DNA of 25,505 bases from Halobacteriales archaeon QS_9_70_65. GTDB taxonomy: Archaea; Halobacteriota; Halobacteria; Halobacteriales; Haloarculaceae. The stretch spans positions 1-25,505 of the forward strand of contig PXSC01000013.1 in NCBI GenBank assembly GCA_003023535.1, written 5' to 3'. Numbering within the stretch: position 1 is the stretch's first letter; each line of letters opens with the position of its first letter. The position numbers and the translations under genes are program-made. Shown in pieces: positions 5,244 to 21,026 of the stretch. A model generated the notes under the pieces. It had not been told where the DNA came from. It made no database searches and saw only the letters and a list, made by a program, of their open reading frames with translations.

Positions 5244-5268
5244 TTTGACGGGACGCGGTCGGGTCGTA

Positions 5269-5516
5269 TTTAGTCAAGTGATGCTGGGCGAAAATCCACC
5301 ACTGGGCGGGACTGGAAGGGGCTGGGCTCTCGGCGAGCGAGACGACGCAAGCGGAGAGGGATCGAAGATCCCTCGGGCCGCTCGCGCGGCGACGCCGCGC
5401 GAGGAGACCGCAGGGAGCAATGCGACCGAGGACCACAGCGAGTCGCAGCCGCCGAGAGCGCAGGGGCTTCCGAGGTCTTGTCTACTCCGTTCACACCGTG
5501 TTCAGTCCTAACTAAA
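5269..5516. repeat. element A: gene-free hairpin element with inverted ends
   Basis: This 248-bp block fills most of the gap between the receiver gene and traB. Its ends are imperfect inverted repeats: TTTAGTCAAG (5269-5278) and, on the other strand, TTTAGTTAGG (5507-5516). Inside are perfect hairpins with 3-nt loops: GAGGGATC-GAA-GATCCCTC (5356-5374), and a 10-bp stem CTCGCGCGGC with loop GAC (5381-5403). Positions 5370-5432 match 20661-20723 of element B at 53 of 63 bases without gaps. Short reading frames cross it in several frames, none with convincing protein character. It could be a mobile non-coding element, or the gene of a structured RNA read leftwards from TTTAGTTA. Confidence 0.6.
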
Positions 5517-5536
5517 CACTATCGCGGTCGCCGCGG

Positions 5537-20126: not shown

Positions 20127-20214
20127 ACCGAACGGTAGGTCGAGACCGGATTAACTCCTTCGGGGAACTGTACCGGGCCGCACGGACCGCGGCGACGGGC
20201 GACGGTCGGCGGTG

Positions 20215-21009
20215 TTCAGATAAGCACCGGCGAGCCGGTCCGTTTCTGCCGGCTACGAAGCCGAACCCTGGCGGACCGAACGGGCGAGACGCCGCGTGGC
20301 GGCGTCGCCGTGGTTCGAGAGAGCGGAGCTCTCTCGTCATCTGCTCACGAGCGGCTCCGCCGTCCGTTCGCACGGGTCGCGGGACTCGACGAGTCCCGCG
20401 CATATCACGAACGGCGCGAAGCGCCTTTCGAACGACCACGGTATGAGGCAGCCGGTGAAACCGGCCGCCCACTCGGCGACCCCTGGCGTTCGCGGCGCCG
20501 TGCGCCGCGAGTTCGGGAGAGCAACGCTCTCCCGGTGACGTAAGCGGAGAGGGAGCCTACGGCTCCCTCGGGTAGTCGGCGCCGTGCGCCGACGACAGAG
20601 AGGGATCGGAGATCCCTCAGGCAGTCGGGCGTCGCCCGACGACCGCGAGGGACCGGCGGTCCCTCGGGCCGCTCGCGCGGCGCTGCCGCGCAAAGACACT
20701 ACAGGGGGCGAAGCGACCGAGGAGCGTGGTTCGAAAGATGTCGTGCGTCGTTCGTCAGTGCGGGAAATCGGAGATTTCCCGCTTGCGGCCAGAATCCGCC
20801 GGATTCCGGCACCGTCACGAGAGAGCGTCGCTCTCTCGAACGGCAGTGAATTCCGGGCAGCGAGGCGACGGCGTTGCCTCGGGCCAGGCGAGCGGGCCGT
20901 GCGAGGCGGGTTCACCGCCGCGAAGTCCCGGCGTGGAGCGCCGCGCATGGCCCGCGAGCAGCAGTCGGCAGCGCCGAGGGCTTTCTTGACTCCGGAATCT
21001 CTATCTAAA
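20215..21009. repeat. element B: array of 17 perfect hairpins with 3-nt loops
   Basis: This 795-bp gene-free block lies between thioredoxin and the next minus-strand gene. Its ends are similar inverted sequences: TTCAGATAAG (20215-20224) and, on the other strand, TTTAGATAGA (21000-21009). Between 20288 and 20880 are 17 hairpins, each with a 3-nt loop and stems of 5-10 bp. Examples are 20317-20335, 20379-20399 (9 bp), 20515-20533, 20549-20569 (9 bp), 20600-20618, 20647-20665 and 20760-20782 (10 bp). Stem sequences differ while the geometry is kept; the one at 20862-20880 needs a G-U pair. Positions 20661-20723 match element A at 53 of 63 bases. Reading frames crossing it look like chance. Confidence 0.65.
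20661..20723. repeat. 63-bp module shared with element A
   Basis: This stretch aligns without gaps to 5370-5432 with 53 of 63 identities. The first 22 bases are identical, and the block ends in GCGACCGAGGA in both. The GAGGGATC hairpin lies directly before the module in A but 43 bases earlier in B, with two more hairpins between, as if units had been gained or lost. Confidence 0.8.
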
Positions 21010-21026
21010 CATTACCCCGCTGCCGG

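Follow-up and report, generated by a model that had tools for sequence, protein, structure and literature searches.

The window, by which we mean the whole stretch of 25,505 nt that was analysed, carries two related elements on its plus strand. The longer one, element B (20208..21016), connects a DUF7116 gene to trxA, and the shorter one, element A (5262..5522), is a second copy of the same family, which is better preserved than B and contains two hairpins. A first-pass annotation had described the block around B as extending from 20215 to 21009. The block is real, but the terminal repeats extend a few bases beyond these limits, so that the true element is 20208-21016; its terminal repeats and its relatives identify it as a non-autonomous element of the IS6 type with a hairpin array. 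The left terminal inverted repeat (20208..20224, plus strand, GGCGGTGTTCAGATAAG) exactly matches the left end of the insertion sequence (IS) of the IS6 family in loci L064 and L065, and the right terminal inverted repeat (21000..21016) is degenerate and reads GGTAATGTTTAGATAGA on the minus strand. A stem-loop at the left end (20236..20280, plus strand) is visible in the sequence as GGTCCG ... CGGACC and has the form CAGTCCG ... CGGACTG in relatives. Remains of a core that recurs in the family were located on the plus strand: the 5′ anchor CGAACGGGCGAG (20277..20288), a decayed form of CTGAAAGGGCGAG, the conserved motifs GACGTAAG (20537..20544) and GAGGAGCG (20719..20726), and the 3′ anchor GGGCTTTC (20978..20985). 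With the covariance model R1 (described below) the core of B scores 13.9 bits (E 0.27) and, judged by this model, is decayed, while the RNA-like core unit of element A (5302..5475, plus strand) reaches 50.8 bits (E 1.8e-8).

Between 20288 and 20838, element B contains 16 perfect, non-overlapping hairpins with stems of 5-10 bp and loops of 3 nt throughout, and hairpin 17 (20861-20881) has one G.T pair in its stem. Our hairpin listing reproduced the positions, the loop sequences and the loop order of the 17 hairpins in the first-pass annotation. On the plus strand these are hairpins 1-4 (20288..20425; loops GTG, GGA, GAC, GAA), hairpins 5-7 (20451..20534; loops GAA, CGT, AAC), hairpins 8-13 (20549..20691; loops TAC, CGT, GGA, GTC, GGC, GCT), which are inserted at the GCAAG site of the core, and hairpins 14-17 (20760..20881; loops GGA, GCC, GTC, GGC). 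The array had been called near-contiguous; all 17 hairpins are present, but gaps of about 40 and about 70 nt lie within it. The sequence CACTCGGCGA (20470-20479, plus strand), situated amid hairpins 5-7, looks like the second half of a split arm of the core stem (compare L038). An overlapping hairpin at 20798 and a 5-bp hairpin at 20965-20977 had not been counted before.

With stems of at least 7 bp and loops of 3 nt, element B has 13 perfect hairpins, compared to a mean of 0.20 (maximum 2) in 200 dinucleotide shuffles of its sequence and a mean of 0.35 (maximum 2) in 115 other 800-bp segments of the 25,505-nt sequence, taken as overlapping segments with a step of 200. The number of hairpins in B is far above chance expectation. 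At this stem length no hairpin with a loop of 0, 2, 4, 6 or 8 nt was found in element B, and those counted with loops of 1, 5 or 7 nt are mostly the 3-nt-loop hairpins again, with a pair added or removed. Both strands of B fold better than their shuffles (z −8.7 and −11.8; 20 shuffles each). The first-pass annotation had seen no protein-like frame that explains the array, and a Pfam search of six ORFs in elements B and A (ORFs only partly overlapping B were left out) likewise gave no match; a coding explanation of the array was rejected on this basis.

Element A is flanked on both sides by CGCGGTCG (5254..5261 and 5523..5530), an exact 8-bp target duplication. Its site is empty in two related genomes, G012 and G008, where the two flank matches overlap by exactly 8 bp. 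The orthologous copy of A in genome G001 lacks a block of 54 bp, which corresponds to the two hairpins present in the window copy. The hairpin-free junction of the G001 copy, GCAAGGACCGCAG, is common to L262, another hairpin-free copy, and no short direct repeat was seen at the break of the 54-bp block. Where aligned, the two orthologous elements are 92.8% identical (192/207), and their flanks are 99.2% and 98.5% identical. We infer from these sequences that exchange between dispersed copies produced the 54-bp difference; insertion or excision may also have done so.

No target duplication was found at element B, where 4 of 8 flank bases match; shifted ends were also checked by eye. Synteny is broken at this element. 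In G001, G012 and G008 the gene next after DUF7116 encodes a dodecin, beyond which lies a gene for iron-sulphur assembly, and the gene after trxA is a PRC-barrel gene (Pfam check of the dodecin, iron-sulphur-assembly and PRC-barrel genes in G012). At the trxA site of G001 a short family member is present. The synteny break is most simply explained by recombination between copies; B would mark a chromosome rearrangement that arose when dispersed copies recombined, or through transposition of the IS6 type.

Copies, ends and target duplications of the family

A DNA search with element B gave matches in 33 of 40 related genomes, the richest being G001 and G012 with 37 and 39 matches. Such a search of haloarchaeal genomes had been proposed in the first-pass annotation, which regarded the lack of any similar array, together with the lack of a transcript, as an argument against its own reading; as to the first point, similar arrays are present in relatives. 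The matches in G001 and G012 cover different parts of the query in shuffled order, indicating that the copies are mosaics.

IS with the terminal repeats of the family are present in genomes G004, G006, G011 and G017. The IS6 IS of 696-697 bp in G004 have the ends GGCGGTGTTCAGATAAG ... CTTATCTGAACACTACC, and the 213-aa ORF of L064 is an IS6-family transposase by NCBIfam, reaching 194.9 bits with the IS6 equivalog (cut-off 125). An exact 8-bp duplication was seen for 6 of 20 IS of 696-697 bp (L049, L065, L067, L070, L077, L079), and the other 14 have no convincing target duplication. For the family itself, 61 end-to-end copies were available. The best of ±1 base shifts at each end was taken, and 22 copies match at 8 of 8 flank bases and 10 at 7 of 8, while re-pairing of the flanks of the 61 copies leads to an expectation of 0.07 copies with 8 and 0.57 with at least 7 matching bases. 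In a strict subset with both core motifs (n = 39), 15 copies have 8 and 7 copies have 7 matching flank bases (expectation 0.04 with 8, 0.19 with at least 7). These data show that the family has IS6-type terminal repeats and generates 8-bp target duplications. A convincing duplication is lacking for 29 of the 61 copies (17 of the 39 in the strict subset), and cointegration or decay could explain the missing duplications in copies and IS. The 61 copies derive from 76 collected end pairs, 15 of which were dropped before the count (11 without core motif, 4 shorter than 190 bp). Among the 61 are 22 without one of the two core motifs, including the wrongly paired ends L023 and L030, whose correctly paired elements score 8/8 and 7/8, as well as orthologues of one insertion (copy A and L263), and the set was partly ascertained through one hairpin.

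The 32 dated copies, i.e., those with 7 or 8 matching flank bases, have lengths of 191-690 bp, all below that of the parent IS (696-697 bp). Element B with its 809 bp exceeds the parent IS and is not a miniature element by this measure, so the term IS6 MITE denotes the mechanism and not the size. A search for the IS6 transposase in G001 and G012 revealed only broken, distant relatives with stops (33-40% identity). These assemblies are 76% and 88% complete; the family may have outlived its mover in the two genomes, or the incomplete assemblies may miss the transposase.

The available parts of two articles give GG ends, a TGTT motif, 8-bp repeats and a length of 700-750 bp for haloarchaeal members as IS6 features (PMC7986276, PMC6807381), and these agree with the ends and duplications of the family. 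One of them describes an ISH14-like haloarchaeal IS of 696 bp with 211 aa and an 8-bp duplication, and holds, in the part available, that archaeal members should stay out of the IS6/IS26 family (PMC6807381). As far as these descriptions go, the IS6-family IS of Halobacteria and the hairpin-element family are alike in terminal repeats, 8-bp duplications and hosts. Unlike these IS, the hairpin-element family has no transposase gene, its interior consists of a structured core and hairpins, and B (809 bp) is longer. Two IS6-family MITEs of 227 and 336 bp are attributed to ISfinder in the accessible text of PMC7986276, presumably the MITEBth2 and MITEHarch3 that are named in the accessible text of PMC6807381. 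They likewise have IS6 ends and no transposase, and one is haloarchaeal to judge by its name. The comparison is by description only: in the parts of these sources at hand no core fold or hairpin arrays are mentioned for them, and the family described here reaches 690-809 bp. MITEHarch3 may be a short member of the hairpin-element family.

Structure and range of the core unit

A core of about 100 nt underlies most copies of the family. The common unit consists of CTGAAAGGGGC, a stem of 12 bp whose sequence is free, GAA, a short stem and GACGCAAG, followed by a small stem, GAGGAGCGCAGCGAG, the return arms and GGGGCTTTC. For 20 core units, selected solely by their sequence anchors, 30 pairs were scored: 95.8% of the cells are paired compared to 76.0% in shuffles, and 20 of the 30 pairs have changed on both sides. 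The covariation score of these units is 0.519 versus 0.162 after shuffling (0/500). Sliding the partners by 1-3 columns reduced the score to 0.077 or less, which is a lenient control since the core structure was drawn from those same 20 sequences. A MAFFT alignment of 34 units mis-registered two sub-types, and for this reason 14 rows were left out and 20 units used. For 41 matches from other loci, sequences fitted to model R1, covariation was 0.633 versus 0.159. A covariance model had been suggested in the first-pass annotation; model R1 detects the core, and B itself only at the low score given above.

In 58 distinct anchored stems, the mispairs of the long core stem are 40 G.T, 12 A.C and 36 others, a count that retains some mis-registered rows where hairpins interrupt the arm. 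The whole fitted set of core units has 31 G.T and 3 A.C mispairs, a result that leans to G.T because model R1 rewards G-U. An excess of G.T over A.C is what folding of the unit strand as RNA would produce, and judging from the sequences the core is probably an RNA of known strand, the unit strand. The structured non-coding RNA considered in the first-pass annotation fits this core of the family, but not the array on which that reading was based, since the core of B is decayed and the hairpins are without strand preference.

Rfam 15 (4227 families) gave no match at the gathering score in the 25,505-nt window and no match up to E 5 in the region of copy A; for the region of B and three core-bearing loci the best matches reached 15-30 bits, compared to gathering scores of 40-77.5. 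Six matches below the gathering score (miRNA families in L276; PyrR208, radC and P17 in B) were treated as chance. The alignment was also inspected for a kink-turn or another named internal-loop motif in the core, without a convincing result. In some units (for example L263 and L248) the apical core stem closes a 3-nt loop and contains a tandem G-A/A-G mismatch (GGGAGC-NNN-GCGACC). This mismatch becomes full pairs in other copies (GGGCGC/GCGCCC, GGCCGC/GCGGCC). The apical core hairpin is perhaps the ancestor of the hairpin arrays.

With model R1 at E ≤0.001, a core unit was detected in 124 of 145 genomes of the class Halobacteria, some training units of R1 stemming from genomes later counted among the 145 (at least G001 and G021). 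Many genomes have at least 24 units, and up to dozens occur per genome, with at least 36 in each of two genomes. When 100 genomes sampled from the phylum were searched (E ≤1e-4), the core turned up in 13 of the 15 that belong to the same order and in none of the other 85. Relatives of one core unit are also present in 38 named plasmid records. Among the 30 plasmid matches listed, 27 have no annotated feature, 2 coincide with a hypothetical protein and 1 is in an unannotated record, the gene table being incomplete. We found no description of the core or of the hairpin arrays in the literature, a search confined to open-licence papers and therefore weak evidence of absence.

In other genera the core is often doubled, with two units back to back and 41-49 bp between them. 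Back-to-back units of L269, L276, L322 and others are joined by a central stem (CAGTCCCACCCG ... CGGGTGGGACTG in L276), and in several paired units the 3′ anchor continues as CTTTC-NNG-TGTT or similar. IS6 ends were recognised for the units of other genera in L276, L315 and L327, and one end in L309. Core units without recognised IS6 ends are those of L338, L339 (which has hairpins) and several of L308-L337. Two of these loci, on plasmids of DL31 (L338, 480-700) and Halomicrobium urmianum (L339, 500-720), have a similar stretch upstream of the core, around TTTAGCCCGG and then AATGGTCGGTCGCGAGCG, which may be another conserved non-coding element or a common gene end. The pattern of one hairpin type gave 0 viral contigs and the core unit of L268 gave 0 phage records, and an origin from a phage or virus was rejected on these two results. 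The 15-base core motif GGGACTGAAAGGGGC occurs in 16 viral contigs (L347-L362).

Hairpin content and maintenance of the arms

The shortest dated copies (191-220 bp; 11 of 32) lack perfect hairpins with stems of 7 bp or more, and the longer ones carry 1 to 13. Length rises with the number of hairpins over the 32 dated copies (r=0.91), which reach 690 bp and 13 hairpins. Hairpins interrupt the core after GCAAG, between GAGGAGCG and CAGCGAG, and before the 3′ arm; in L038 they lie within the 5′ arm of the long core stem (GGCGCT, two hairpins, CTCGACG). Of the three readings that had been offered for the array, that of a mobile element which grows as hairpins duplicate comes closest: the terminal repeats, the 8-bp duplications and the empty site of copy A demonstrate mobility of the family, and copies differ by whole hairpins, which may or may not have arisen by duplication.

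For the first hairpin after GCAAG, 69 contexts were retrieved via an exact neighbouring hairpin. A perfect 8-bp stem is kept in 40 of them, with at least six sequences of the stem arms (GAGGGACC, GAGGCGAC, GAGGCGGC, GAGGGAGC, GAGGGATC, AGGGAGCC) and many different loops. Four element contexts have one mismatch, and the remaining 25 are mostly bacterial or different, a few being element copies with a broken hairpin. That both arms change together, by selection or copying of the fold, had been noted within the array of B and also holds across copies.

Single mispairs in the hairpins are 7 G.T, 6 A.C and 18 others, and GNA and TNC account for 33 and 29 of 120 loops; element B is included in both counts. 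Loops and their reverse complements are nearly equal in number for GAA (32) versus TTC (22), GGA (26) versus TCC (27) and GAC (20) versus GTC (14), and unequal for AAC (9) versus GTT (3) and CGT (10) versus ACG (2). The hairpins look strand-symmetric, with a figure that rests on 13 G.T/A.C mispairs. Reverse-complement loops make up 114 of 1278 pairs with different loops (8.9%), compared to 5.3% in column-shuffled loops (0/500), a symmetry that could be inflated by wrongly oriented elements. There are 119 pairs of 40-nt contexts that differ in the loop alone; the loops are reverse complements in 18 of them, or in 15 of 116 once three uninformative pairs from self-complementary contexts are set aside. 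The counts of mispairs, loop flips and 40-nt contexts use loci that include a few bacterial records. Strand symmetry, free and flipping loops and complementary stems together argue for upkeep at the DNA level and not for RNA selection. With moderate confidence we infer from the sequences that small loop inversions and arm-arm correction occur in DNA hairpins.

Other hairpins were seen during this survey. In the related elements L137 and L145 one hairpin is lengthened to a perfect 20-bp stem, TTGCGGTGTCCTCGCGCGGC, with a 3-nt loop. In Roseomonas records (L124 807-1168, L180, L156, L121) a hairpin CTCGCGCGGC-NNN-GCCGCGCGAG recurs every 115-170 bp; in L124 it sits in a different repeat, and it possibly represents an unrelated dispersed hairpin family. 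Among the bacterial matches (Roseomonas and others), L124 was inspected and, with its different context, treated as chance or as another repeat.

Pneumococcal BOX elements are likewise modular: their ends are fixed, and the number of hairpin units inside them varies. They occur in other hosts and have a single inner unit type, whereas the family described here has dozens of stem sequences. In chloroplast DNA, small hairpin-loop inversions are known, in which loops between short perfect inverted repeats flip to their reverse complement. Here, unlike in chloroplasts, the loops have 3 nt and the hairpins stand in arrays on a mobile element.

Explanations and implications

Taken together, it is quite probable that element B belongs to a haloarchaeal non-autonomous family of the IS6 type, in which an RNA-like core gains hairpins, and that B is one of its long and partly decayed members. 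The family would be moved by an IS6-family transposase provided in trans. The core would act, or would once have acted, as RNA of the unit strand, and the hairpins would be secondary additions, exchanged between dispersed copies that recombine at the conserved core and spacer sequences. A process at the DNA level, such as template switching in hairpins or arm-arm exchange that also flips the loop, would keep the arms complementary, and not a requirement of the RNA.

RNA selection could also extend to the hairpins, each copy then being a giant multi-branched transcript under purifying selection. At one site stems and spacers are kept while the loops are nearly free, and the hairpins are positioned at junctions of the RNA-like core, as would be expected in this case. 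We nevertheless regard this as doubtful, considering mispairs without G-U bias (7 versus 6), similar numbers of GNA loops and their complements (33 versus 29) and reverse-complement loops above expectation. The synteny data could also be explained by an assembly artefact with contigs misjoined inside a dispersed repeat, since in G001, G012 and G008 the flanks of B continue from DUF7116 into dodecin, not trxA, and from trxA into the PRC-barrel gene. However, even the top matches of B in related genomes extend over no more than 303 bp and are 76-90% alike, which makes a clean misjoin over 809 bp less likely, and the family is independently real in many genomes; such an artefact is therefore unlikely. 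The strong folding of both strands, the covariation of the core and its wobble asymmetry would suit a large non-coding RNA gene encoded by the host, with incidental end repeats and with hairpins as selected RNA stems. Tens of dispersed matches with 8-bp duplications in the richest genomes, the lack of copy A at the orthologous position of two close relatives, strand-symmetric hairpins and the decayed core of B render this very unlikely.

An array that binds proteins or organises the chromosome, of the REP/BIME kind, would also consist of palindromes and be present in many places per genome, but the ends, the target duplications and the empty site reveal a transposed unit, and hairpin content is freely variable, so that we consider this highly improbable. 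PATEs and SMRs of Haloquadratum walsbyi are, like the family described here, transposase-free haloarchaeal repeats of many copies, and according to the available part of PMC3119063 PATEs are common and carry near-terminal IS605-like palindromes; one haloviral PATE is transcribed according to the part of PMC10544981 at hand. A derivative of PATEs or of IS200-IS605, or a fold like the omega-RNA of TnpB, is nevertheless hardly credible. Terminal inverted repeats and target duplications, both present in the hairpin-element family, are excluded by the definition of PATEs, and SMRs have no duplications, as described in the accessible text of PMC3119063. In addition, the core was absent at E <0.05 from 12 tnpB loci (best 0.1), a subset of the tnpB matches in five genomes. 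This definition and the TnpB test led us to reject an origin from PATEs or IS605.

The transposition side of the hairpin-element family is of a known kind, and the new part is the core together with growth by hairpins. Our findings extend beyond the earlier observation of one array to a non-autonomous family of the IS6 type, an uncatalogued core found throughout the class, and hairpin accretion. A structured element in 124 of 145 haloarchaeal genomes without Rfam match represents a class-wide annotation gap, and the loci with core units are a ready set for functional tests. The comparison of an RNA-like core with strand-symmetric hairpins also demonstrates that covariation by itself is no proof of RNA. 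How large folded molecules gain helices is usually a speculative question; the size series from hairpin-free copies to copies with 13 hairpins, together with a two-hairpin block that is present or absent at one locus, makes helix gain testable. Only tentatively do we propose the wider view that Halobacteria harbour class-wide mobile structured RNA units, which would be the archaeal equivalent of short non-autonomous repeats that bear RNA, in most genomes and in up to dozens of copies, with IS6-type and perhaps other ends, which would grow by accreted hairpins with 3-nt loops, their arms being kept perfect and their loops flipped by a DNA process. If this is true, arrays like that of element B would be living records of the stepwise gain of helices by a structured sequence.
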